44,085 nucleotides of DNA. It comes from Sedimentisphaerales bacterium. GTDB lineage: Bacteria; Planctomycetota; Phycisphaerae; Sedimentisphaerales; Anaerobacaceae. The notes beneath the pieces were generated by a model. The model was not told where the DNA came from, searched no databases, and was given only the letters and a program-made list of their open reading frames with translations. Positions 10,648 to 36,422 of this stretch are shown in pieces; within the stretch, counting starts at the first letter, position 1; each line of letters begins with the position of its first letter. The DNA lies in contig JANQHJ010000100.1 in assembly GCA_028282745.1 (NCBI GenBank), forward strand, positions 1-44,085, read 5' to 3'. The position numbers and the translations under genes are program-made.

Positions 10648-13600
10648 GTGAAAAAAATACTATATGTTACCTTAGTATTATTATCAATCGTGTTTACAGG
10701 TCTTGCTAATAATCAAGGAAATGCTGTATCACGTACAAGCACTGTAGTCGGCATAAATGCATTGGATAACAGTACAATAAAGGTATTGCCCAAGACACGC
10801 GGATCCAATGGTTTTGCTGCACTTTCTCAACAGAGCCCGTTTGTTAGAATGGCTAAGAAAAATGAACATCTGTGTTCATTAGGGGCACCTGAGAATTATT
10901 ATTTTTCTGTCAATACTGTTGTGCCTGGTGATCCAAAAACTACTGCCCAGAACTTTATTTATGAACAAAAAGAAATATTTGGGATTACAGGTAGTGAGGT
11001 GGATTTTTCTTCTAAAAGAAGTAAGAGAAAAAATGGCAAAAACTATGAGCGATTTCAGCAGACTTATTCTCAAATCCCTGTTTATGGTGCAGAATTTCTT
11101 GTTCAATTAGACGATTCTGGAGGAGTAGAGTATGCGTTTTGTGATATCATGACTGACACCAGCTTACTGGATGACGGGCACATTTCTACAACTCCTGCTA
11201 TTTCAGCGTATGATGCTGAATGTACTGCTTTAGAGAAGTTGAGCCAGGAAAACCCAGCGTATCAACTGGATTCTCTTGATCCTAAGTTGATGATATTTCA
11301 TCCCGAAGTAATTGGTAATGTTGGTCCGACAAAACTGATCTGGTACACGGAAGTCAAGAGCACCCATGCTTATAATGTGGACGAGGTTGTTTTGGTTGAT
11401 GCGCATTCAGGCCAAATCTCGATGCGTTTTTCTCAAATCAAGCATATCAAAGAAAGGCAAGTTTACGATTCAAGTAATAGTACTGATAACCCGGGTACTT
11501 TGTCACGTTCTGAAGGAGAAGCACCTATCGGTAATCAAGACGTCGATGACTGTTATGATTATTTGGGCGACACATATGATTTCTATTTCAATGAACATGG
11601 GCGTGACAGTATTGACAATGCGGGTATGATCCTAAGTGCGACTGTCCGTTTTTGTATGTTTGAGACAGATTGTCCGATGCAAAATGCATTCTGGAATGGC
11701 TCGCGCATGTTTTTTGGCGAGGGTTTTGCAACCGATGATATTACAGCACATGAGCTTACCCATGGTGTAACACAATACGAATCAAATCTCATATATATGA
11801 ATGAGTCTGGCGCAATTAATGAATCATTTTCAGATATGTGGGGCGAATGGGTTGACTTGACTAACACAGGTGGCAACGACTCTCCGTCTGTAAGATGGCT
11901 ATTGGGAGAAGACATCGGTGCCATCAGGAATATGGCTGATCCTACCCAATTCCAGGACCCTGACAGCAAGTGTAGCCCTTTCTGGTATGCTGGTTCTGGT
12001 GATAATGGCGGTGTACATACCAACAGCGGTGTTGGTAATAAGCTTTGCTATCTGCTTACAGATGGCGATATCTTCAAGGATGTTGAAATACAGGGGATGG
12101 GAATTTCCGCTGCGGCAGAGCTTTTCTATGAAGTCCAGACAAATCTTCTAATACCAGCATCTGATTACGCAGATTTACACATTGCCGTGACACAGGCGGC
12201 AATTAATCTGGGGTGGACTCAGCAAGAAAGGCTGAATCTTGAATATGCGTGTCTGGTCACAGAGCTAAGTAAATGTTTTGATCCAGCTGATCTTATCGAT
12301 AATATTCCGCCGTATCCCGATCCTGCAGAATGGGCCAGTTGGGGTCAGCCTGTACAGACCGGTGTACAAACTATAATTATGGAAGCTAAAAGAGCTGTTG
12401 ATAACCGGGGTGGCGAGGTTGAGTATTACTTTGAATGTACTACCGATTCAAGTTTTGATAGTGGGTGGCAGTCAAGTACCGTTTATAATTCTACTGGATT
12501 GCAGGCCGGTACTGAATATGCTTTTAGGGTACGGGCCCGTGATGAAGCAAATAATATTACAGAATGGTCTTCTGTAGAATCTGCTAATACGGATTCTACC
12601 TCCGACCAATCGCCTCCTTTTACTGATCCTCCGCGATGGCTTCATAAACCAAGCAAGCTTGTATTTGATCCTCCTAGTAATATTACTCTTACTATGATGT
12701 CATGGCCGGCCTTTGATGAAAGTGGGGTCGAATATTGGTTTGAAATGGTTACTCCTGATGGAAATGGCGGCTGGATAGCTGATGTCAATTCGGGATGGTC
12801 GGTATTAAGGTACTGGAGACCGGATCAGGCCACGACAGGTTTTATTGCTGGCAATACTTACCATTTCAGATTCAAGGTTCGTGACAGGTCAGCACAGAAT
12901 AATGAGACAGCTTTTTCTTCTGTAGAATCTGTCACGCTTGTACGAGATCCGCAAGTTATTACTGTTCCCGGCCAGTACCAGTCTATACAGGATGCGATAG
13001 ATGCTGCGGCTCCTTCAGGCGATATTGTTGTAGTCAGCCCTGGTACTTATACAGGCCCGAGAAATAACAATTTGGATTTCGATAGTAAAAAAGTTACAGT
13101 TCGAAGTACGGACCCAAATAACTTAGTTACGGTTAATACTACAATTATTGATGGTAGTGGTATTCGCAGGGCATTTGATTTTAGTAAAAGCGAAGGGCCT
13201 GATTCTATTGTCGCCGGCTTTACTATTACTAACTGTGCCAATCAGGGAGCTGATACAGATACAGGTGACCCTAATAATCCTATACCTCCTGGGCCCGGAT
13301 TGGGTGGCGCTATCATTTTTACAAACAATTCCAGTCCTACGATTAAAAACTGTATTATTAATAACTGTTATGCTATGGGTGGAAATTCTACAGACCCTAA
13401 TGGTGGTAATGGAGCAGATGCTTTAGGCGGTGCGTTATACATCGATAGCGGCTGTCATCCAATCATACAGAATTGTGATATATCTGGCTGTTATGTTCAG
13501 GCTGGAACTGCGGTCAATGGTTCACCTGGTTCAGCAATGGGCGGTGCAATTAATGTTAATTCCGGGGCCAATCCAAAAATTATTGACTGTACTATTACGT

Positions 13601-16600
13601 CTTGCACAGCAGACACTGGAACCCCTGTATTATTCAGTGAGGGAGGAGGAATTTATTGGGATTTATCAGTGGCAACCTCTTCATGGGATCCTAATATTAT
13701 TACTGGCACGGATATAGTTTCAAATTATGCTGAAGATGATGGTGGTGGTATATTTTTTACCGATGCAAGCGTGCCTGTTAATCTTAGAAATTGCAGAATA
13801 CATCAGAATTATGTCACACAGGGTGATGGTGGGGGAATTGCATATTCTCATGGAAATGTATTAACCATTTCCCAAGGCAGTGTTATTTCAGAAAATTCCG
13901 CTGATACCTGGGGTGGTGGTATTGTTGTGGGGGAAATTTCAAGTACATCTTTGGATGCGAGCTTAGTGATTGTTGATTCGCAGATAAGAGGTAATACAGC
14001 CCAGTTCGGCGGGGGTATTTACGCTAACAAAACAACAATAGACGTGAACGGCAGTGATGTATCCGAGAACATCGCTAATGAAGGTGCTGGTATTAATAGC
14101 AGTTATTCTGATGTAACAATTTATATGAGTGATTTTAATGGTAATAATGCTGACGCTAATTTGATAATTGGTAATTCGGGTACAGGTGGTGCCTTGGCGC
14201 TATGGGATTCGAATATCGTAATTACGAGCTGTGAATTCAAATCGAATGTAGCCGCTGGTATCGATGGAATGGGTGGCGGTATTTATATTAGTGGTAAAAG
14301 CCTGCTGCCGTCGATTATAACCAATTGTCTGGTTGTAAACAACGAAGCTGAAAATGAAGGTGCTGGTATATTCTGCCATCTTGGTGCTCTCGTTCAGCTT
14401 AATAATTGTACCATTGCTGACAATAATGTAACTTCGCCTGTTGGTATAGGTGGTGGTGTTGCTTGTGCCGAACATTCCTCTTATATCCAGGTTAATAACA
14501 GTATTCTATGGAACAACTATGCGGGAGAAGGGCCTCAAATTGCTGTCGGTAGAAAAGACAGCTCGATATTTGATCCTCAGGCCATAGTTGATGTGTGGTA
14601 TTCTGATGTTCAGGGCGGGGAATCTGACGTTTATATTGAAGATAACAATCCTTATGTTGCTGCATATTTTCTCATGGGCAATCATGATGTTGATCCGCTT
14701 TTCACTAACGTTAGAGTTGATGAATCAGGTAATATGATACAGGATTATTACCTTAGTAACGCACAGGCCGGCCAACTCGAAGACAGCCCGCTTATTAACA
14801 TGGGGGATGGTTCTGTTGATGACCTTGTTAATGTCGTCGGCTATCCTGTTTCAACAAGAACAGATCATGTCGCAGATGTATGTGAAGTTGACATGGGTTA
14901 TCACTATTCGGCTTCTATCCAGCCAGAGTATTACTTGCTTACTATTACCGTTGATAAACCTGGAAATGTTGCACTTGAAGGGTATTTGCGTGCCCATACT
15001 TTTGATTTTGATATTATTGCAGGGGATGAGCCTAATAGCATATTAGTTAAGCAGGGTACGGTTGTAAAGCTAACGGCAATGCCTAATAACAATTTTGTTG
15101 TTGGCACGTGGCAAGGTACTGATGACGATACCTCTACTGATCCCTGTAACACTGTTTTAATGACTACTGATAAAAATGTAATCCTGTCGTTCTTGCCTGA
15201 TGGAATGTTTTATCTAAATACAGAGGTTATCTCTGGCAATGGTAAAATATTCTATATCGATGGCCAGGATAACAAAGTTCAGCATCCGGGAACAACTATC
15301 CATTTAGCTGATGAACTGGTTAAGTTAGTTGCGGAACCGGATGTCCTGACAGATGTTACACATTGGACAGGTACTGATAACGATACGACTATTTTGCGTG
15401 AGATCGTCATAAAAATTGATTCTAACAGGGACGTACAGGTAGCCTTTAGAACACCGGATATACTTCATGTCCCCGACGATTACACTATTATTCAAACTGC
15501 TATTGAAGAAGCTCAGCCCGGTGATATCGTTAAGATCGCACCCGGAGAATACCAGACAGAGTATGTTACTGCGTATTTAATTGATGGTAAACCAATTGTA
15601 CTTACAAGTGAGGACCCTGAAGATCCTTGTGTAGTTGCCGAGACTATCCTTCGTAATGGTTTGGAGATTTTAAATGTTGACCGCAGTTGCAGGATTCTCG
15701 GTTTAACTTGGGCTAATTTCGGATGGAGCCCTCCTGATGGCAGAAATGGTAATACGCCGCAAAATCCTTTGGCAGATGGTGAGAATGGGAATCCATCTTA
15801 CGGTGTTGCTATATTGTTGCACGAAGACTATGTAGATATTATTGATCCACCCAATATTGGCTCATCTCCTTATATTAAAAATTGTGTTTTCAGGAACATT
15901 TCTGCTGTAGGAAGTAATGGAGGTAATGGCGGAGTCGTAAATGGCCAACCTGGCGATGGTGGCTGGGGTGGTTGGGCCCAGGGTGCTGCTATTTCACTTG
16001 GCTCTGAAAGTAATCCCAAAATAGAAAATTGCAAATTCATTAACTGTTCTGTTACTGGCGGTGATGGTGGTAATGGTACTAATCCACCAAATGCTGGACG
16101 AGGAGGTATGTGGACCCAGACATATCTTGGTTCTGATGGCTGGGAATATGGCCCATACGTAGAATTTACCAGGTACACAGGTCGGGGAGGTGCCCTGTAT
16201 GTTGAGGTAAATAGTACTCCTGAAATTATTAACTGTGAATTCACCGATTGTGTTGCTATGGGCGGAGCCAGCGGGCAGGGTGGTGGACCGGTATCTCCTA
16301 ACAGATATTATAGAAACAATCGATATGGTGGCGCGGTTTACTGTGCTGAAGGTAGTAGCCCAGTCTTTACTGGTTGTAAATTTACTAACAATGTTGCCGA
16401 TATCAATGGCCCCGCGCAATGGCATGATAATCGAGGGAACCCCGCACCGGCATTTTCTTATCACGACTTTTTGAGTTATGGCGGTGCCGTGGCTTTCGCC
16501 GGTTCATCGGTTCCAACATTTATTGATTGCAACTTTACTAATAATTCCTCTACGATCGGTGGTGGTATGTATTGGGCTGATTGTAATCCTGAATTATACA

Positions 16601-18570
16601 ACTGTGATTTCAATGACAACACTGCTTATCACGGTGGAGGTATATTATGCATTGGAGGTTCAGGAAGAATTGATCATTGCCGCTTTACTTCGAACAGCGC
16701 GTCATTTGTCGGTTCGTACGGTGGAGCAGTAGCCTCTATAGGTGCTGATACTCACATCATAGATTCTCAGATGATAGATAATTATGCTAATGCTGGTGCA
16801 GGTATGTACACATCCAGTATGAATATCATAGATCCTAACAGTGAAGAGATTCCTGCATTGAATAAAATTACGATAAGAAATTGTCTTTTTGCCGATAATA
16901 AAGCATTGTCATCAGGTGCTGGATTGTCGGTCAACTGGCATTCATACGCAGATATTGACCTTTGTACTTTTGCTGATAATGCTGTTTTGGGCAGCGGTCC
17001 TGGCGGCGGTGTTGAAAGTACTTATGGCAGCTTTGTTTCGATCAATGATAGTATTATCTGGAATAATTCTGCTGGAAATGGCAGGCAGATTGCTGTTTAT
17101 CCCGAAGCTACTCCTGCTGCGGCAGTTGTTGAGTATAGCAATGTTGAAGGAGGCGGTATAATTGGCCTTAATGTTAGAGTAGATACTGGTAATATATTTG
17201 ACTATGCCCAGAACACAAACATTAATGATGATCCTTTATTTGTCAGCAGCCCGGTGGGCGATTATTTCCTCTCACAGAAAGCTGTTAATGGGCAAAACCA
17301 GGATAGTCCTTGTATCGACATTGGCAGTGATTTTGCTATTGATCTCGGCATGAATGAAAGGACAACAAGGACGGACCAGCAATATGACAGGGGGCTTGTC
17401 GATATGGGATTTCATTATCCATTTGCCGGTATTGATGTCATTTGCAAAGTATGCGATCTGTTATTTGACGGTAAGATCACACTCTTTGACCTGGATTACT
17501 TTGCTCTTAGATGGCTTAACGATGATTGCAGGGAAGGCAATAACTGGTGTGAGGGAGCCGACTTTAACTTCGATACAAATGTTGATTTGTTTGATCATGC
17601 ATATTTTGCTCAATGTTGGCAGATGGAAGATAAAACGCCGCCGATACCTAATCCTTCAACCTGGTATAAGGCTCCCGCTGCTACTCATTCGGGTATTGAA
17701 ATGCACGCTGATGCCGCATGGGATGCCTGGTGGGGCAGCCATGAAGATGGTTATATTGAATATTACTTCAAATGCACCTCAGATTCGAATTTCGATAGCG
17801 GCTGGATAGACAGTAATTCTTATGAGCCTCCAGGTCTTGTAAGGGGCCAGGAATATACCTTTAAGGTTAAGGCGAGAGACGGTTCAGGAAATGAAACTGT
17901 CTGGTCTAATATACGCGGTGTTAAAGCCGGCGATCCGGTAGTGCTCGTTCCAGATCCTCTTACCTGGGCCCAGATACCTGTAGCTATTAGTGAATCTGTC
18001 GTGAGAATGGAAGCTGATCAGGTTACTGGCGCTTCTCCAATTGAATATCTGTTCATTAACCAGACTACTGGAGAGGACTCGGGCTGGCAGTCAAGTGCTG
18101 AGTATGAAGAAACTGGCCTGACGCCGAATACCCAATATACCTATGTTTGTGTGGCGAGACATCCTGATAGCGATACTTACACAACTCAATCTGAACCGAT
18201 CACAGTTACTACGCCTCTACCGGGAGTTGCGGATGTCACCCCGCCAATTCCGCTCAAAGCGTCATTTGATTCGGGGCCGGTTGTACAGGCATTAGGTGAT
18301 GGTTATTACCATACAATGACTGCTGTTACTGCTACTGAAGAGCAGGAAGGTGGCACACCTCCGGTATGGTATAAATTCTACTGTGAGGAATCTGGTTTCA
18401 ATAGTGGCTGGCAGCTAAGTCCAACATATAGCGTTAGGATTTCGACATTGAATCAATGGGGACAATTATTCTGGCAGGTACAGACACGCGATAGCGTAGC
18501 ACCTTTCCCGAATGTTGGTCAGATATCTGATAAACGAAATGCGTTTGGTCAGGTTATACCTGTCCCGTAA
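10648..18570 (+). CDS. Giant exported M4 metallopeptidase with Fn3-like, beta-helix and dockerin-like domains
   Basis: A 2640-residue modular secreted protein beginning with GTG, preceded by AGAAAGGA. A signal peptide (about 1-20) and an FTP/PepSY propeptide (about 75-265) lead into a thermolysin-family M4 domain. Zinc and catalytic residues are HELTH (His368, Glu369, His372), Glu392 in GAINESFSD, and His457 in NGGVHTNSG. Then follow two Fn3-like domains (about 550-766, with SGWQSS and YAFRVRARD motifs), a first right-handed beta-helix (about 770-1425), two Listeria-type repeat-like beta domains (about 1428-1602), a second beta-helix (about 1607-2258), a dockerin-like EF-hand pair (about 2263-2328) and three more Fn3-like domains. 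It probably degrades or binds extracellular protein or polysaccharide. Domain limits are approximate. Confidence 0.88.
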   Translation: MKKILYVTLVLLSIVFTGLANNQGNAVSRTSTVVGINALDNSTIKVLPKTRGSNGFAALSQQSPFVRMAKKNEHLCSLGAPENYYFSVNTVVPGDPKTTAQNFIYEQKEIFGITGSEVDFSSKRSKRKNGKNYERFQQTYSQIPVYGAEFLVQLDDSGGVEYAFCDIMTDTSLLDDGHISTTPAISAYDAECTALEKLSQENPAYQLDSLDPKLMIFHPEVIGNVGPTKLIWYTEVKSTHAYNVDEVVLVDAHSGQISMRFSQIKHIKERQVYDSSNSTDNPGTLSRSEGEAPIGNQDVDDCYDYLGDTYDFYFNEHGRDSIDNAGMILSATVRFCMFETDCPMQNAFWNGSRMFFGEGFATDDITAHELTHGVTQYESNLIYMNESGAINESFSDMWGEWVDLTNTGGNDSPSVRWLLGEDIGAIRNMADPTQFQDPDSKCSPFWYAGSGDNGGVHTNSGVGNKLCYLLTDGDIFKDVEIQGMGISAAAELFYEVQTNLLIPASDYADLHIAVTQAAINLGWTQQERLNLEYACLVTELSKCFDPADLIDNIPPYPDPAEWASWGQPVQTGVQTIIMEAKRAVDNRGGEVEYYFECTTDSSFDSGWQSSTVYNSTGLQAGTEYAFRVRARDEANNITEWSSVESANTDSTSDQSPPFTDPPRWLHKPSKLVFDPPSNITLTMMSWPAFDESGVEYWFEMVTPDGNGGWIADVNSGWSVLRYWRPDQATTGFIAGNTYHFRFKVRDRSAQNNETAFSSVESVTLVRDPQVITVPGQYQSIQDAIDAAAPSGDIVVVSPGTYTGPRNNNLDFDSKKVTVRSTDPNNLVTVNTTIIDGSGIRRAFDFSKSEGPDSIVAGFTITNCANQGADTDTGDPNNPIPPGPGLGGAIIFTNNSSPTIKNCIINNCYAMGGNSTDPNGGNGADALGGALYIDSGCHPIIQNCDISGCYVQAGTAVNGSPGSAMGGAINVNSGANPKIIDCTITSCTADTGTPVLFSEGGGIYWDLSVATSSWDPNIITGTDIVSNYAEDDGGGIFFTDASVPVNLRNCRIHQNYVTQGDGGGIAYSHGNVLTISQGSVISENSADTWGGGIVVGEISSTSLDASLVIVDSQIRGNTAQFGGGIYANKTTIDVNGSDVSENIANEGAGINSSYSDVTIYMSDFNGNNADANLIIGNSGTGGALALWDSNIVITSCEFKSNVAAGIDGMGGGIYISGKSLLPSIITNCLVVNNEAENEGAGIFCHLGALVQLNNCTIADNNVTSPVGIGGGVACAEHSSYIQVNNSILWNNYAGEGPQIAVGRKDSSIFDPQAIVDVWYSDVQGGESDVYIEDNNPYVAAYFLMGNHDVDPLFTNVRVDESGNMIQDYYLSNAQAGQLEDSPLINMGDGSVDDLVNVVGYPVSTRTDHVADVCEVDMGYHYSASIQPEYYLLTITVDKPGNVALEGYLRAHTFDFDIIAGDEPNSILVKQGTVVKLTAMPNNNFVVGTWQGTDDDTSTDPCNTVLMTTDKNVILSFLPDGMFYLNTEVISGNGKIFYIDGQDNKVQHPGTTIHLADELVKLVAEPDVLTDVTHWTGTDNDTTILREIVIKIDSNRDVQVAFRTPDILHVPDDYTIIQTAIEEAQPGDIVKIAPGEYQTEYVTAYLIDGKPIVLTSEDPEDPCVVAETILRNGLEILNVDRSCRILGLTWANFGWSPPDGRNGNTPQNPLADGENGNPSYGVAILLHEDYVDIIDPPNIGSSPYIKNCVFRNISAVGSNGGNGGVVNGQPGDGGWGGWAQGAAISLGSESNPKIENCKFINCSVTGGDGGNGTNPPNAGRGGMWTQTYLGSDGWEYGPYVEFTRYTGRGGALYVEVNSTPEIINCEFTDCVAMGGASGQGGGPVSPNRYYRNNRYGGAVYCAEGSSPVFTGCKFTNNVADINGPAQWHDNRGNPAPAFSYHDFLSYGGAVAFAGSSVPTFIDCNFTNNSSTIGGGMYWADCNPELYNCDFNDNTAYHGGGILCIGGSGRIDHCRFTSNSASFVGSYGGAVASIGADTHIIDSQMIDNYANAGAGMYTSSMNIIDPNSEEIPALNKITIRNCLFADNKALSSGAGLSVNWHSYADIDLCTFADNAVLGSGPGGGVESTYGSFVSINDSIIWNNSAGNGRQIAVYPEATPAAAVVEYSNVEGGGIIGLNVRVDTGNIFDYAQNTNINDDPLFVSSPVGDYFLSQKAVNGQNQDSPCIDIGSDFAIDLGMNERTTRTDQQYDRGLVDMGFHYPFAGIDVICKVCDLLFDGKITLFDLDYFALRWLNDDCREGNNWCEGADFNFDTNVDLFDHAYFAQCWQMEDKTPPIPNPSTWYKAPAATHSGIEMHADAAWDAWWGSHEDGYIEYYFKCTSDSNFDSGWIDSNSYEPPGLVRGQEYTFKVKARDGSGNETVWSNIRGVKAGDPVVLVPDPLTWAQIPVAISESVVRMEADQVTGASPIEYLFINQTTGEDSGWQSSAEYEETGLTPNTQYTYVCVARHPDSDTYTTQSEPITVTTPLPGVADVTPPIPLKASFDSGPVVQALGDGYYHTMTAVTATEEQEGGTPPVWYKFYCEESGFNSGWQLSPTYSVRISTLNQWGQLFWQVQTRDSVAPFPNVGQISDKRNAFGQVIPVP

Positions 18571-18596: not shown

Positions 18597-18630
18597 AAAA
18601 AACCTCGGGCTTTTAGCCCGAGGTTTTTTT
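18597..18630. terminator. Strong bidirectional terminator between the giant gene and aroC
   Basis: CCTCGGGCT (18603-18611) and AGCCCGAGG (18615-18623) form a perfect 9-bp stem with a TTT loop. It is followed by seven T on the plus strand and preceded by a run of A that serves the minus strand. It sits between two convergent genes, so it can end both. Confidence 0.9.
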
Positions 18631-18651: not shown

Positions 18652-19980
18652 TTATTTAACTTTGTCTAACACAGCCTTATAACCAAGCTGCATCATCAGG
18701 TTGTCAAGAACAACCATTGCTGTAAAGTTTTCCGCGATTGGCCAGATACGTCCAACAATAGTGGGGTCGCGTCTTGTAATAGCCTCGAGCTTTTTGTTTT
18801 CGAGGGTGTATTTATCAATGGTTACTTGTGGCTTGGCGATAGTCGGCGTAGGCTTAACGGCAATGCGGGCTACTATTGGCTGGCCTGTTGACAAACCGCC
18901 TGTAATTCCGCCTGCCTGGTTCGACTGAAACTTGACCTGGCCGTCTTCTGAATAGATCTGGTCGTTTGACTCGGCTCCTGTCATATCCTTAACAGCCATG
19001 CCGGCTCCGATCTCAACAGCCTTAACGGCTCCGATGCCGACGAGCTTACCAAGCTGGCTGTCGAGTCTTTCAAAGCACGGCTCGCCAAGGCCTGCAGGAG
19101 CTCCCAGAACCACAACTTCACATATGCCGCCTGATGAATCACCAGTCTCGGTGATCTTGTTACAGGCATCGACCATATCATTGGATACATCGATGTCGGG
19201 ACAATTGACTATGTGATGAACACCGTACTTTTCTTTGATCTCTTCAGGTACGATCTTAGGTGCCTTATCCCTGATAGCATCAATTTCCTGCTCGATTTCT
19301 GCGAACACCTTGCATTTCTCAAGATAACGCATATCCATATGCACTCTGCCGCTCTCATAAACTTCCTGGTAGAACGGATCGTAATCCCATCTCATCTGTT
19401 TATATCTGTTGGTGTAATCCAGAATAGCCTGGTAATCCATCTCTGGACATTTAACACCAGCAGCCTCTTTGATGTAAGAGAATATCTCGATACCAAAGCT
19501 CTTTAGCACTTTCTTAGCCACGTACCCGGCTGCTACGATGGTTGCGGTTCTTCTGCCACTGAAGAATCCCGCCCCGATAGCGTCATCATCAGGCCCATAC
19601 TTCATGAAAGAAGCGTAGGATGCGTGACCCGGACGAGGTGTCCGGTTAGTATCCTGGTACTGCTTAATATGTATGAAGTGCCTGTCGAGATTCGGGATAA
19701 CGATAACCATCGGTGTGCCGTTGGTATGATTCTTATTACCAGCGCCCTGAATCGTATCCTCGACATTGATGCCCGAATAGATAATGGGCAGATCGGGCTC
19801 CTTACGAGGACTCGAAAGCTCATCGGCTCCCGGCTTTCTCAGAAGAAGATCGCCGTAGATCTCTTTTTCACTAAATTCCATTCCTGGCGGATTGCCGTGT
19901 ATCATAGTCGTCAGACCTTCCTGATACGAACCGCCCGCCACCGTCACTTGAAACATTCTACCTGTATGACAACCTAACAT
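18652..19980 (-). CDS. aroC: Chorismate synthase, divergent (AroC-like)
   Basis: A 442-residue AroC-family protein. The enzyme converts EPSP to chorismate using reduced FMN in the cytoplasm. Recognisable blocks are GNPPG (about 30-34), TPRPGHASY with the second conserved His, FFSGRRTATIVAAGY (the SxR signature) and TRRDPTIVGRIWPIAE near the C-terminus with the conserved Asp. It is about 80 residues longer than usual (near 360), mostly from extra sequence around 190-260. The N-terminal GESHG motif, which carries a catalytic His, reads GGSYQ here (Tyr19). The RHDP motif is RRDP and several FMN-site residues also differ. It follows aroA on the same strand after 59 bp. I call it aroC by family, with activity uncertain. 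Confidence 0.8.
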   Translation of the reverse strand: MLGCHTGRMFQVTVAGGSYQEGLTTMIHGNPPGMEFSEKEIYGDLLLRKPGADELSSPRKEPDLPIIYSGINVEDTIQGAGNKNHTNGTPMVIVIPNLDRHFIHIKQYQDTNRTPRPGHASYASFMKYGPDDDAIGAGFFSGRRTATIVAAGYVAKKVLKSFGIEIFSYIKEAAGVKCPEMDYQAILDYTNRYKQMRWDYDPFYQEVYESGRVHMDMRYLEKCKVFAEIEQEIDAIRDKAPKIVPEEIKEKYGVHHIVNCPDIDVSNDMVDACNKITETGDSSGGICEVVVLGAPAGLGEPCFERLDSQLGKLVGIGAVKAVEIGAGMAVKDMTGAESNDQIYSEDGQVKFQSNQAGGITGGLSTGQPIVARIAVKPTPTIAKPQVTIDKYTLENKKLEAITRRDPTIVGRIWPIAENFTAMVVLDNLMMQLGYKAVLDKVK

Positions 19981-20039
19981 AGTTCGTAAAATCTCCTAAA
20001 ATTAATAATAACGAAGAATTCCGAGCCAGACAGTATACA

Positions 20040-21299
20040 CTATTTGTGAAAAATTTCAAATCTTTCCCAAAAATCTGGAAAACTCTTTGCCACACACCCC
20101 GGATTCTCGATTTGCTGATCCCCGGTAACCAGCCCAGCCACCGCAAAGCTCATAGCTATCCGGTGGTCATTATGCGGATCGATCCGTGCCCCATGGGCAT
20201 CTTTTGTGCCTTCAATAGATAGCGAATCTTCATCGCATCGGGCCTTTACGCCCATTTTAGCCAGTTCTGAGACCATTACGCCCAATCTGTCACATTCCTT
20301 ATGGCGCAGATGCCCGATGTCCGTCAATCTGCTTACCCCATCTGCAAAGGCGCACGCAACAGCCATCGGAGGCACCAGGTCTGGGATATCACTCATGTCA
20401 TGTTCTATTGCCTTTAAAGGCCGTCCGGAAACAGTAATACATCTGCTGCCTTGCTCAACTTCGCATCCCATCTTTTTCATAAGCTCGACAAACTCACTGT
20501 CGCCTTGCCGGGTGTCCTTGCTGAGATTTGTAACGGTTATCTTGCTCTGGCAGATTGCAGCTGCCAAAAAGAAGAACGATGCACTGCTGTAATCACCTTC
20601 TATATTTATTGTTTGACCTTGGTATTTACCCTGCGGTACAGTCATTATCTTGTAATTATCATTCTTTGCCTTGATCCCGAACTGCTCCATAATCCCAAGG
20701 CTAATATCGAGATAAGGCTTCTCCGTCATCTCATCGAGACAGTTTATAGTAACAGGCTCTTTCGAGTAGGGTGATGTTATCACGATCGAGCTGAAATACT
20801 GTGAAGTTTTACTTCCCTGCATATTAACTTGTCCGCCGCCGATACCTCCGCCTGCAATTCTAATAGGCGGAAATCCTTCCTCTGATAAATACTCTATCGA
20901 GCATCCTAACTGCCTCAGTCCGTCAACGACTTGACCAATAGGCCGCTCTGTTATTCTCTTAGCACCTGTAAGAATGACGGGGTTTTGGGATAGACAGCTT
21001 ACACTGCTGAGAAAATTCATCCCCACCCCTGACTCACCTACATTGAGTTGCTCTGCAATGGGTGTTAATTCTCCGCCTGTCCCCTCAACGACTATTTCGT
21101 CGGAGCCCATTTTAATCTTAACGCCTAATCCCTCAAGGCATCGTATTACATTAAGCTGGTCTTCGCCCAGAAGGGGTTTTTGAATTACTGTTTTACCCTC
21201 TGCCAAAGCTCCTATTATCAATGCCCGAAGCGTATGTGCCTTCGCTGCCGGTGCCTCGGCTGTCACATCAAGATTACATATCTTATCTACTGTTTTCAT
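20040..21299 (-). CDS. aroA: 3-phosphoshikimate 1-carboxyvinyltransferase (EPSP synthase), divergent
   Basis: A 419-residue AroA-family protein; I choose the ATG at 21299 over an adjacent TTG. EPSP synthase joins PEP to shikimate 3-phosphate. Conserved parts are Lys20 and Arg25 (PAAKAHTLRAL), TERPIGQVVDGLRQLG, GSKTSQYFSSI, GDYSSASFFFLAAAI, DIPDLVPPMAVACAF (catalytic Asp), HLRHKECDRLG, DPHNDHRIAM and KSFPDF. Unusual changes are Ala21 where the substrate-binding Ser of the GSKS motif normally lies, and GESGVGMN in place of GNAGTAMR, so the usual Thr and Arg are missing. Length is normal. It is upstream of aroC and probably co-transcribed. Overall fold and pathway are secure; specificity is less so. 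Confidence 0.85.
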   Translation of the reverse strand: MKTVDKICNLDVTAEAPAAKAHTLRALIIGALAEGKTVIQKPLLGEDQLNVIRCLEGLGVKIKMGSDEIVVEGTGGELTPIAEQLNVGESGVGMNFLSSVSCLSQNPVILTGAKRITERPIGQVVDGLRQLGCSIEYLSEEGFPPIRIAGGGIGGGQVNMQGSKTSQYFSSIVITSPYSKEPVTINCLDEMTEKPYLDISLGIMEQFGIKAKNDNYKIMTVPQGKYQGQTINIEGDYSSASFFFLAAAICQSKITVTNLSKDTRQGDSEFVELMKKMGCEVEQGSRCITVSGRPLKAIEHDMSDIPDLVPPMAVACAFADGVSRLTDIGHLRHKECDRLGVMVSELAKMGVKARCDEDSLSIEGTKDAHGARIDPHNDHRIAMSFAVAGLVTGDQQIENPGCVAKSFPDFWERFEIFHK

Positions 21300-21398
21300 C
21301 AATCTTATATCATTTAGCAGCGTTCGACACGAACGCTCAATTTAGTTTTGAAAAAATAGCTTACCATACAAAGTTAAAAATTCACACAAAAATTAAAA

Positions 21399-32658: not shown

Positions 32659-34335
32659 TCACATTCTCTGATAACGAGGCCCGCCGCCGCCTTCGGGCAC
32701 AGTCCAGCGTATGTTATCAAAGGGGCATTTCCGCTGACATGTCTTGCAATGCAGACAGTTTGACGGATTTGCTGCTTTAACTTCATCGCTTATTGTCTCA
32801 TAAACACCGGCTGGACAGAAAGTAATACAAGGTCTCTCGAATTTCGCAGCGCATTTTTCTACGCAGATATTTTTATCAATAATTATCAAATGACTTGGTT
32901 GATCTTCTCTGTGCTCTGTTGCTGCTACAGCGGTAAACGTATCTTTGTCGAAACGGTGTTTGCATTTGAACCTGTACTTTGCTTTCGTCATAACCTCATA
33001 GTCTTTTTCTACTTTAAACTTAGGAAGTAAATTGCCCAAAACCGATATAGGCAAGCCGAACAAAGGCCCAAGCTTTGCAATAGTCTGCCTGTAATTACGC
33101 CCTGACATCATCTCTTTATCTACACTTGAATTGTCAATAAGCTTGGTATATTGCTTAGCTGCTTCGTTCGGTTCGGATATTGAAGAAGCTATCGCCTTAG
33201 CTGCTTTTGTCCCGGATATAATAGCGTTATGAAGTCCCTTGATTTTCAGCATATTTACAAAGCCGGCGCTGTCACCAGCTATAATACAGTTACCAATTCC
33301 AATAGAACCGCTGACCGGGTCACGCGGTATGGCATAATATCCACCTTCCGGTATCATCTTCGCACCAGCTTCAACTACCGTTCCGCCTTTAATATATTGC
33401 TCCACAAAACGATGTTCTTTGAATCTCACCAGGGCATCTTGTGGATTAAAATCATGATACTTCCAGTCTGCCCCGACGATTATCCCGACAGATAGATGGT
33501 CTTTCATTCCGGCATAAATAATGCCACCGCCGAACATCGCAGGCCCTATTACGGGTCTCCAGAGTGGGTAACCCATCGCATGTACTACTCTGCCTGGCGT
33601 GAATTTTTCATACTGATCCGGATTGACTTTTATTAACTCTTTAACACTGACCGAATAAAGCTGATCACTCTTTCTTTCTAACCCGGCCTTTCCGACTAAA
33701 TTTTCAGTTAGAAGCCCATCACACCCCTCAGCCAACACAACAAAATCGGCCTTTACGATTTCACCAGCCAAATAGTTAGGCTGTTTATTGCCTTCTTTAT
33801 CCAGCCCCTGATCGATAAGTTTCACACCTGTGACAACACCCTTAACATCATTGAAAATAACATCTTCAGCTGCGAACCCTTTGAGTACCTCAGCACCCAA
33901 TTCACTCGCTATTTCGCCAAGCCACCTTGTCAACCTGCTGATTGACACCGAGTAATCATCAATGTGCATCATCTGCCCAAGGCTAAGACCGAGCATGTTT
34001 GCTATCTTTATCATAAAGAAAATGTTGAAAGACAAGCTCTTGCCTAATAAAAACGTTATGCTGTCTTTCTCTATCTTATTTGCTAAAACTTCCTTCGCTT
34101 TATTACTTTCCATCCAGCCGGGCCGAACATCATCCAACAACTGATGTAGCGCCATAACCTCCAGCACTGCCCCCGATAAGTTATGGTTCCCAAGCTCCTG
34201 TCCTTTTTCAATAACACAGACTTCAAGCTCAGGCTTTTCATACTTTAGCCTTATCGCCGCAGCCAACCCAGCTGGCCCGCCCCCAACGATCAACACATCT
34301 GTCTTATTATATTTATCTATATCTTTCACCGTCAA
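32659..34335 (-). CDS. Electron transfer flavoprotein:quinone oxidoreductase
   Basis: A 558-residue ETF-QO/FixC-family flavoprotein that passes electrons from ETF to the quinone pool at the membrane. The FAD-binding DVLIVGGGPAGLAAAIRL lies at about 13-31. A second FAD motif reads GNCIIAGDSAGFVNMLKIKGLHNAI, and the C-terminus carries a 4Fe-4S site: CPAGVYE and NCLHCKTCQRKCP. It begins with TTG whose last two bases overlap the TGA of the fused EtfBA gene, so translation is coupled. The length matches ETF-QO rather than the shorter FixC. In anaerobes such a module can feed low-potential electrons into menaquinone. Confidence 0.92.
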   Translation of the reverse strand: MTVKDIDKYNKTDVLIVGGGPAGLAAAIRLKYEKPELEVCVIEKGQELGNHNLSGAVLEVMALHQLLDDVRPGWMESNKAKEVLANKIEKDSITFLLGKSLSFNIFFMIKIANMLGLSLGQMMHIDDYSVSISRLTRWLGEIASELGAEVLKGFAAEDVIFNDVKGVVTGVKLIDQGLDKEGNKQPNYLAGEIVKADFVVLAEGCDGLLTENLVGKAGLERKSDQLYSVSVKELIKVNPDQYEKFTPGRVVHAMGYPLWRPVIGPAMFGGGIIYAGMKDHLSVGIIVGADWKYHDFNPQDALVRFKEHRFVEQYIKGGTVVEAGAKMIPEGGYYAIPRDPVSGSIGIGNCIIAGDSAGFVNMLKIKGLHNAIISGTKAAKAIASSISEPNEAAKQYTKLIDNSSVDKEMMSGRNYRQTIAKLGPLFGLPISVLGNLLPKFKVEKDYEVMTKAKYRFKCKHRFDKDTFTAVAATEHREDQPSHLIIIDKNICVEKCAAKFERPCITFCPAGVYETISDEVKAANPSNCLHCKTCQRKCPFDNIRWTVPEGGGGPRYQRM

Positions 34336-36422
34336 TGCAGTTCCAATGACTGAACAAGTTTAGGTAGTATTTCTTCCGCACTACCTACCATATAATAATC
34401 ACACTGCTTGAATATCGGAGCATGCGGATCGCTGTTGATTGCGACTATCGTTTCGGTATTTGCAACGCCTATCATATGCTGGATCGCTCCGCTGATTCCG
34501 ACCGCTACGTAAAGCTTCGGCCCCACCGAAGCCCCCGTCTGACCAACCTGCCTGATACGCCCGGCGAATCCCTGTTCGACCGCTGCTCTCGTCGCGCCTT
34601 TTTCTACACGCTTTTCAAAATTTTTCTCAAGTATCTTGCATAATGAGCCAATCAGCCTTTCATAATTATCACGGTTCTGCATACCCTTACCGCCGCTGAC
34701 AATGATATCTGCATCGAGACTCACTTCTCCGTTGCCTTTGACACTTTCGATAATTTCAAGGCTTACATCATCTTCTGATAAATTAACCTCGTGGCGGATA
34801 ACTTTTCCTTTTCGGTTTTTATCTTCCGGCAACCTTTTCATAACGCCAGGCCGCGCCGTCGCCATCTGCGATTTCGAATTCTTGGTACAGATGGTCGCCA
34901 TCACATTACCGCCGAGAGCGGGGCGGGTCTGCAGCAATATCGCTATCTCACCCCTTCGGGAACTGTCTTTTATGTCGAGCCTGGTACAATCAGCCGTCAG
35001 CCCGCAACCGCATCGATACGAAACCATAGGAGCCAGTATCCTGCCCTGCGGTGTCGCGGCAAAGAGAACTATCTGGGGCCAGTGTTTTTCTATACAATCC
35101 GACACTGCCTTTCGATAAACCACGGGATCGAATTGCTCAAGCAGCTCATTTTCAACAATATAAACTTTGTCAGCACCTGCCCATATCAGCGGATCTGTCA
35201 TGTCTTTGATTTTATTACCCAAAAGCAAAACGCCTGCCTCTACTTCAAGCGATTTGGCCAGCTCCTTCGCCTTTCCTATTAGTTCATAAGTAGCAGGATG
35301 CACCTGGCCATCGATTATCTCCGCGACTACCCAGACTTCACCATTATAAGTAGGTTCGCTCAGGTTGAACCCCTCAAGCATTGCCTCCAGGGTGTTCTTA
35401 TGAAAACGCTTACCAGACTCTACAATAAGCTTGCTTTTGGCATATTCGTCCAAATCACCCGGCTCGCCCACTCCCAACTCTTGAAGCTTCTCAACTAACA
35501 GGGCGTAATCCTTGATTTCCTTTTCGAGCCCTTCGAATCTCCTGTCAAAAAGACTCTCTCGGTTTTTGACAAGAACATAACTTCCGTCATCTTGTATTCT
35601 GGCCGCCGACTTCAATCCATTTTCGCCCAGGCATTTTGTGATAAGCTTTGATAGAGTTCCCACATCCTCTACTTGCTCACATTTTCTGCTGCTTTTACCC
35701 GGCGGGAACACTCTTATCACAGCTGTCTTGGATCCCTTTGCCCCGATACTGCTTGCCCGAACGTCACCTGTTCCCCACCGAATCACATTCACATGCTGAG
35801 CCCATCTGCTTCGTCCAAAAGATGCGAACATCGGGTACTCGTATTTTGCCACGGTTATTACCGCCGGCTTACTCTTCACCGCGGCCACTTCGCTGCCGCC
35901 GCTGATTATCCGGGTAAACTCGAACCTGCCGTTCTTGTATTTACTATCGGTTACATAGGCAACGCATGGTATCTGCAGTTCCTCTGCAACCTGCCCGGGC
36001 ACCTGTGCCGTGTCACCGTCAACTGATTGCATCCCGCTCAGGACATAATAATCATTTTCATTTTTTAGTATTTCTTTCGCGATTTTTCTTATTGCAAATG
36101 CAAGCGGATTTGCTGTCGCCCATGTATCCGCTCCGCCAAGTGCTCGATCAGTTAGCAAAACAACTTCATCAGCGCATCGTGACAAGCTGTATCGAAGTAT
36201 CTCTTCCGCTTTAGGCGGCCCCATCGTCAGGCATATTATTTTACCGTCACCGCCCGATATGTCCCTCATATGATTAGCTGTTGCCAGCGCTTGTACATCC
36301 AGCTCGTTAATAACGCTTATTAATCGGCTACGTATTAATGTCCCGCTCACCGGATCAAAAGCATTGTCCGTTATCTGGCTTATATCGGGTACTTGTTTGA
36401 CTAAAACTATATAATCTGACAT
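34332..36422 (-). CDS. Fused electron transfer flavoprotein, beta and alpha subunits in one chain
   Basis: A 696-residue fusion. Residues about 1-260 are EtfB (YIVLVKQVPD start, SGMQSVDGDTAQVPGQVAE nucleotide site). A linker of about 100 residues with coiled-coil character follows. Residues about 355-696 are EtfA (WVVAEIIDGQVHPATYELIGKA, then the FAD signature GASVGPKLYVAVGISGAIQH and AINSDPHAPIF near the C-terminus). ETF is usually two separate proteins that accept electrons from acyl-CoA or other dehydrogenases. The order beta-alpha and the overlap with ETF-QO form one electron-transfer operon. No acyl-CoA dehydrogenase is in the window. Confidence 0.92.
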   Translation of the reverse strand: MSDYIVLVKQVPDISQITDNAFDPVSGTLIRSRLISVINELDVQALATANHMRDISGGDGKIICLTMGPPKAEEILRYSLSRCADEVVLLTDRALGGADTWATANPLAFAIRKIAKEILKNENDYYVLSGMQSVDGDTAQVPGQVAEELQIPCVAYVTDSKYKNGRFEFTRIISGGSEVAAVKSKPAVITVAKYEYPMFASFGRSRWAQHVNVIRWGTGDVRASSIGAKGSKTAVIRVFPPGKSSRKCEQVEDVGTLSKLITKCLGENGLKSAARIQDDGSYVLVKNRESLFDRRFEGLEKEIKDYALLVEKLQELGVGEPGDLDEYAKSKLIVESGKRFHKNTLEAMLEGFNLSEPTYNGEVWVVAEIIDGQVHPATYELIGKAKELAKSLEVEAGVLLLGNKIKDMTDPLIWAGADKVYIVENELLEQFDPVVYRKAVSDCIEKHWPQIVLFAATPQGRILAPMVSYRCGCGLTADCTRLDIKDSSRRGEIAILLQTRPALGGNVMATICTKNSKSQMATARPGVMKRLPEDKNRKGKVIRHEVNLSEDDVSLEIIESVKGNGEVSLDADIIVSGGKGMQNRDNYERLIGSLCKILEKNFEKRVEKGATRAAVEQGFAGRIRQVGQTGASVGPKLYVAVGISGAIQHMIGVANTETIVAINSDPHAPIFKQCDYYMVGSAEEILPKLVQSLELH

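Follow-up and report, generated by a model that had tools for sequence, protein, structure and literature searches.

The shikimate pathway is a target of herbicides and antibiotics, and in this aromatic pathway shikimate kinase (AroK) is an earlier enzyme than chorismate synthase (AroC). For AroC, the histidine of the GESHG motif, described as conserved, is reported to protonate the leaving phosphate (PMC2386126; PMC7144000), the other catalytic histidine protonates flavin N1 (20-fold loss on replacement by alanine) and an aspartate primes flavin N5 (300-600-fold loss on replacement; PMC3509576). Docking to a fungal enzyme placed the phosphate of 5-enolpyruvylshikimate 3-phosphate (EPSP) at R129 and R354, with further contacts to R46, R103 and R362 (PMC11633415), and an arginine has been allowed as alternative acid (PMC12697075). 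Here we analyze a stretch of 44,085 nucleotides from a Sedimentisphaerales bacterium (contig JANQHJ010000100.1; hereafter the window), in which a gene for an AroC with tyrosine in place of the GESHG histidine, termed aroC', follows a gene for EPSP synthase, aroA. In our judgment the two are probably an ordinary aroA-aroC pair for chorismate formation, with an AroC of a distinct, widespread Tyr-type subclass that would use another acid for the phosphate. Among titles and abstract openings of the open-access literature, none was found that deals with a chorismate synthase lacking this histidine, or with the absence of shikimate kinase, in Planctomycetota. The two genes are:

18652..19980, minus strand: aroC', Tyr-type chorismate synthase of 442 amino acids with GGSYQ, RPGHAS and TRRDPT
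20040..21302, minus strand: aroA type A, EPSP synthase with KA and a GESGVGMN loop; the TTG start at 21302 is directly followed by an ATG, which would place the start at 21299

The residues to which an initial annotation of the window had drawn attention are present in the AroC' protein of the window (P0001). It carries GGSYQ at residues 16-20, hence Tyr19, where Escherichia coli AroC has GESHG and His19, TRRDPT where E. coli has GRHDPC (RRDP for RHDP), and 442 residues as compared to 361, an excess of 81 where about 80 had been stated. Further changes with respect to E. coli are Glu17 to Gly, Asp46/Arg47 to Leu/Leu, Asp108 to Ser and Arg125 to Phe. The second catalytic histidine (E. coli His106, His119 in P0001) is retained, as is Asp321 (Asp405). 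P0001 scored 306.8 with PF01264 (cut-off 27) and passed TIGR00033 with 302.4 (cut-off 212.2).

The AroC residues noted initially are not due to chance, since they are identical in all 47 AroC' rows of an alignment (A2) of 79 proteins, which comprises 47 AroC', 16 of the AroC'' relatives described below and 16 canonical AroC. The position of E. coli H19 (Neurospora crassa H17) is Tyr in 47/47 AroC' and His in 16/16 canonical rows, and RRD is found in all 47 AroC' and all 16 AroC'' rows where the 16 canonical ones have RHD. Every AroC' row has Gly17, Tyr19, Gln20, Lys49, Ser121 and Arg404, and His104 occurs in all Tyr-type rows and in no canonical row aligned. Common to all 79 rows are R48, R59, R116, H119, R143, K376, R403 and D405 of P0001 (E. 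coli R48, R59, R103, H106, R129, K293, R319 and D321). In the AroC tree, 51 AroC' form one group (support 100/100) and 17 canonical proteins another (100/99); the rows of G229 and G197 are in wrong reading frames and their correct genes have GESYG. In an evenly drawn sample of the class, proteins with 57-100% identity to P0001 are encoded by at least about 74 of 298 genomes, counting the matches listed, the members of the clade being 57-82% identical. Carriers are Sedimentisphaerales and other Phycisphaerae and, among the best 80 of 349 confirmed stretches taken as named-genome sample, metagenome-assembled genomes (MAGs; most genomes used here are such) titled Lentisphaerae, Spirochaetota, Omnitrophota, Fibrobacter (Fibrobacterota), Chitinivibrionales, Armatimonadota and Ratteibacteria, taxon names of loci being those of the record titles. 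In these best 80 of 349, identity is 69-82%, frames are open, and TRRD and RPGHAS are present in 80/80; SYQ is present in all 79 uncut loci (78 GGSYQ, and GASYQ in L312), the remaining one, L357, ending before the motif.

Relatives of about 408 amino acids, AroC'', occur in family f16 and in genome G047 of the same class and are 40-43% identical to P0001. They share with AroC' the Tyr after GES, Arg for His320, Thr402 and His104 (16/16), but unlike AroC' they retain Glu17, Gly20 and Arg125, and in eight of the first nine inspected GESYG is followed by an insert. This insert smears the A2 column of Tyr19, so that only 10/16 are displayed as Y, although all 16 AroC'' have GESYG.

The AroC' model obtained from 79 sequences (predicted local distance difference test score, pLDDT, 92.1) superseded an AlphaFold model from 12 close sequences (pLDDT 61). 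It superimposes on 7rca with Z 42.6 and a root mean square deviation (rmsd) of 1.8 over 350 positions, on 1qxo, the complex with flavin mononucleotide (FMN) and EPSP, with Z 37.5 and rmsd 2.5 over 352, and on 1um0 with Z 39.2, and all 28 Foldseek matches below 0.001 are chorismate synthases; as modelled, AroC' is a full chorismate synthase fold. Known AroC proteins (PF01264, TIGR00033; 1qxo, 7rca, 1um0) and AroC' therefore share the fold, R48, R103, H106, R129, K293, R319, D321 and the position beside aroA. They differ in His19 to Tyr, His320 to Arg, Glu17 to Gly, Asp46/Arg47 to Leu/Leu, Arg125 to Ile, Phe or Leu, new His101 and His104, and the additional length, the model showing helices at 183-252. 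Fungal R46, R103, R129 and R362, which we take to be E. coli R48, R103, R129 and R319 (own numbering; R354 was not placed), are all retained. As the flavin His and Asp and these EPSP arginines are retained and the phosphate-side His is lost, the flavin side appears intact and the leaving-group side remodelled. AroC' would thus bind reduced FMN and EPSP as usual through R48, R103, R129 and R319, His106 would protonate flavin N1 and Asp321 would be the base near flavin N5. The departing 3-phosphate would be protonated by another group, and we infer this replacement acid to be Tyr19, the new Arg404 of TRRD, or His104.

The AroC class of a genome was set by the number and identity of the matches listed, and the counts by AroC form given here and below hold among these. 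The 123 distinct genomes searched for kinases (54 and 70, G058 being in both) divide into 57 with AroC' only, 16 with AroC'' only, 15 with both AroC forms and 35 with canonical AroC only; in the canonical class GESHG and GRHD were read in 22 genomes, the 13 unread being G041, G042, G043, G044, G046, G050, G060, G061, G068, G110, G117, G139 and G243. A shikimate dehydrogenase domain and chorismate-binding enzymes were each found in 54/54 genomes, including all 29 with AroC' only among the matches listed. In genus g35, the very locus at which G038 carries a canonical AroK-AroC fusion is occupied by AroC' in G120, the DNA of one flank being 82% identical and that of the other 79-83%, and this swap therefore looks like a replacement by a functional equivalent. 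The retained residues, the fold model, the occurrence as sole AroC (among the matches listed) beside the dehydrogenase and chorismate users, and the locus swap suggest that AroC' most likely makes chorismate.

The AroA residues named in the initial annotation, KA for KS and GESGVGMN with Thr97 to Val and Arg100 to Asn, were likewise confirmed. Like class I EPSP synthase (E. coli; PF00275, TIGR01356), the window AroA has most residues for shikimate 3-phosphate (S3P) and phosphoenolpyruvate (PEP), retaining Lys22, Arg27, Arg124, Ser170, Gln171, Asp313, Lys340, Arg344, His385, Arg386 and Lys411 (E. coli numbering), and it scored 418.1 with TIGR01356 (cut-off 287.25) and 362.5 with PF00275 (cut-off 22.8). 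Unlike class I it has Ser23 to Ala, Asn94 to Glu, Thr97 to Val, Arg100 to Asn, Pro101 to Phe and Ser197 to Glu; Ala95 to Ser and Ala98 to Gly are further changes. In the AroA alignment E. coli is represented by a PDB chain that has Thr23, the K-12 gene encoding Ser23. A second form, type B, has KSH...NSGTTLR and a replaced Lys411, and two type B proteins (G010, G126) also have N100. Within 3 kb or less of AroC', type B was found in 37 of the 80 named loci (32 with NSGTTLR, five partial or divergent) and type A in 6/80; the other 37/80 showed no aroA in flanking sequence of up to 3 kb. The nine type A rows cluster together (100/99) and all come from AroC' genomes, while the AroA tree as a whole intermixes AroC'-only, both-form and canonical genomes: the AroC'-only label, given among the matches listed and also, irrespective of any other AroC genes, to the rows from Spirochaetota and Armatimonadota, changes 10 times, and type B of canonical G236 lies beside that of AroC' genome G008 (99/92). 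Both types occur within one genus, g16, adjoining AroC' in either case: type B in G015 and type A in G186. This pair and the mixed tree indicate that AroA types swap at one place independently of AroC. The coordinated drift of two consecutive enzymes proposed earlier is thus not borne out, nor did phylogeny recover a paired AroA/AroC clade, and the pairing of AroC' with an odd AroA is incidental. The other suggestion, a distinct mechanistic subclass, holds for AroC insofar as a class of sequences is meant (a single group at 100/100, a fixed signature, sole AroC in most carriers among the matches listed), whereas a different mechanism would follow only by inference; AroC' is a conserved class, neither decaying nor drifting in pair with AroA.

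The window AroA is probably an active EPSP synthase of a separate lineage with a changed PEP/glyphosate loop. E. coli AroA Ser197 is a phosphate-side Ser. Glu197 was considered as a sign of an unphosphorylated substrate and rejected, canonical-AroC genomes with their own AroK (G028, G030, G091, G236) having Glu197 too. Changes at Thr97 and Pro101 are reported to lower glyphosate sensitivity in E. coli (PMC8983318; PMC3411725), from which we would guess that the window AroA is probably poorly glyphosate-sensitive as well.

Several observations weigh against chorismate formation by an ordinary pair. P0001 reached 311 with NCBIfam PRK05382, below the cut-off of 321. Since a canonical AroK-AroC fusion is present in the window's genome as well, AroC' need not carry the flux there. 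The lost residue is the phosphate protonator, so that a changed leaving group would fit too. Searches with the PF01202 profile, made in 54, 70 and 24 genomes, gave no match in 49 of the 73 Tyr-type-only genomes (among the matches listed) and an AroK-like protein in at most three of them, leaving S3P, the assumed substrate of AroA, without a known maker. The archaeal GHMP shikimate kinase (TIGR01920) was above cut-off in 0/54 genomes, with weak partial matches in 30/54. AroK-like genes that adjoin AroC' in G119 and G048 and lie within 2.1 kb of it in G283 and G299 speak for an ordinary pair, yet all four genomes have further AroC matches.

By contrast, all 35 canonical-class genomes have a PF01202 match (E 4e-24 or better); 30 of these kinases fall in the tree outside a homoserine-kinase-like clade, three are fused frames of 543-569 amino acids and two (G046, G117) are untyped. 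Fisher's test gives p 3e-25 when three positives are counted and relatedness is ignored. In the 54-genome search, 17 of 29 AroC'-only genomes had no match, 11 had homoserine-kinase-like proteins only (one with an extra weak match) and one (G022) an AroK-like protein. In the 70-genome search, 22 of 28 had no match, one a weak partial match (G040), three homoserine-kinase-like proteins and G018 a divergent protein without the GGG motif, G165 being left out of the typing. For the 16 AroC'' genomes the corresponding numbers are 10 without match, one weak partial and five homoserine-kinase-like. Among 24 further AroC' genomes (G314 and G315 are probably G001 and G011, and G331 is probably G029; genomes reached through loci were included on their AroC' alone), 16 had no PF01202 match, including single-contig G001, G011 and G017 and genomes labelled as other phyla. 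The other eight had homoserine-kinase-like proteins (G020, G331, G324, G326), an AroK-like one (G322), or cytidylate- or gluconate-kinase-like or odd proteins (G317, G318, G325). Absence of a match is not proof, because the search also misses the bacterial control Synechococcus elongatus, and two genomes with both AroC forms (G277, G078) lack a PF01202 match, which counters a simple rule linking AroC form and AroK. Near the aroA-aroC' pair or the AroD-AroE-like gene no conserved kinase-looking gene was seen, most neighbors being judged by eye or left unjudged. On the 8.8 kb contig C326 of G022 (L144), one AroK-like gene is intact, and further copies are broken and contain stops.

The stand-alone PF01202 proteins were considered as the missing AroK and rejected: they form their own clade (100/100) and are present also in genomes with a fused AroK. 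Two that were tested scored best with the Desulfovibrio-type homoserine kinase model NF040667 (186.4 and 185.5 bits), the system for which DvMF_0971 is described (PMC5764234), yet just below its cut-off of 197. No threonine gene was suggested among the nearest neighbors in five loci, judged weakly by first letters only. Two labels of the kinase tree deviate from its groups, as the tree itself shows: E. coli AroK is labelled as homoserine-kinase-like, and G049_L396, a member of that clade, is labelled as one of the others.

The kinase data bear on an alternative in which shikimate is not phosphorylated at position 3 by a kinase, or carries another activating group, AroA adds the enolpyruvyl group, and AroC' eliminates that other group or water. 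It would account for the loss of just the one catalytic His located near the EPSP phosphate (PMC2386126; PMC7144000) and for the Tyr-type-only and further AroC' genomes without a PF01202 match, and it would fit with canonical AroC in this order having its own AroK, fused in 10 genomes aligned or adjoining (G028, G027). On the other hand, type B AroA, with identical active-site residues, serves canonical and AroC' genomes alike, the arginine docked to the phosphate (R129) and the other EPSP arginines are retained (PMC11633415; own numbering, R354 not placed), and AroK-like genes lie near AroC' in G283, G119, G299 and G048. We consider this alternative unlikely, and equally doubtful that His loss and AroK loss were one change in a pathway without shikimate kinase, with AroC' as a flavin-dependent eliminase for another leaving group. 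The altered substrates proposed in the initial annotation are possible but disfavored, given the dehydrogenase domain and chorismate-binding enzymes in 54/54 genomes, the same AroA type with canonical AroC and the retained substrate arginines. With an ordinary pair, S3P would probably still be the intermediate, made in most carriers by a kinase not yet recognized.

A search of the window's genome for second copies found a canonical AroK-AroC fusion on contig C1 (G000:C1, L001), with shikimate kinase at the N-terminus of chorismate synthase; the only other PF00275 match is MurA (TIGR01072 532 bits, cut-off 392.7). In this order canonical AroC is usually fused in this way, and the 12 fused rows form one clade (98/98). 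AroC', possibly with type A AroA, might then be a moonlighting or specialized paralogue in another enolpyruvyl pathway, with the C1 fusion making chorismate in this organism. In line with this, 15 of the 123 genomes hold both forms among the matches listed (canonical copy read in G000, G032, G033, G051, G142, G206, G240, G244 and G285), and in G142 (L126) and G285 (L129) AroA, the AroK-AroC fusion and AroC' stand in a row on one strand in an apparent operon. However, AroC' is the sole AroC in 57 genomes among the matches listed, chorismate users are present in all 29 tested, AroC' and the canonical gene were exchanged in situ (G120/G038), and another conserved pathway gene beside the pair was not seen. 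Furthermore, the canonical fusion may not belong to the window's genome, because it lies on a small contig (7.9 kb) with a GC content at third codon positions (GC3) of 0.36, compared to 0.51 for aroC', in an assembly with 3.25% contamination. We regard the paralogue explanation as distinctly improbable. That both genes are decaying under relaxed selection after the canonical copy in the same assembly took over is hardly credible, and is refuted for the clade by the invariant signature across many labels, the 69-82% identity and open frames in 80 named loci, and AroC' being sole AroC in most carriers among the matches listed.

Elsewhere in this genome, contig C38 (L268, 4602-10356) encodes an ADH synthase (TIGR01949, 360 bits) and a 3-dehydroquinate synthase II (459 bits, above cut-off), together with AroB, an HMGL-like aldolase and an AroD-AroE-like gene; the upper pathway there looks partly archaeal. 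Of 48 genomes searched with the AroB profile PF01761, eight were without a match.

Two further features accompany the pair in the window, both noted by eye:

19981..20039, minus strand: intergenic gap of 59 bases from aroA to aroC', in which an AGGAG-like ribosome site precedes the ATG of aroC'
18597..18623, minus strand: hairpin CCTCGGGC-TAAAA-GCCCGAGG followed by T6, directly after aroC'

The gap is consistent with aroA and aroC' being on one transcript, and the hairpin is likely the intrinsic terminator of the pair. One flank has a secretin gene and a 2640-amino-acid protein (10648-18570) with thermolysin-type M4 peptidase domains and right-handed beta-helix repeats, whose cluster is represented in 17 of 41 compared aroC' neighborhoods, partly as partial frames only. 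The other has a REP-transposase-like gene (below its model's cut-off), a subtilase and pyr genes. Farther away (34332-36422), a 696-amino-acid protein with two electron-transfer flavoprotein (ETF) domains and an ETF alpha FAD-binding domain, apparently a fused ETF, adjoins an ETF-QO-like protein.

Part of the textbook aromatic pathway probably runs differently in carriers of Tyr-type AroC. A clade of presumably working chorismate synthases without the GESHG histidine offers a direct test of the mechanism in which this residue is the acid for the phosphate, and the repeated absence of AroK would mean either a new kinase family or new chemistry in a textbook pathway.

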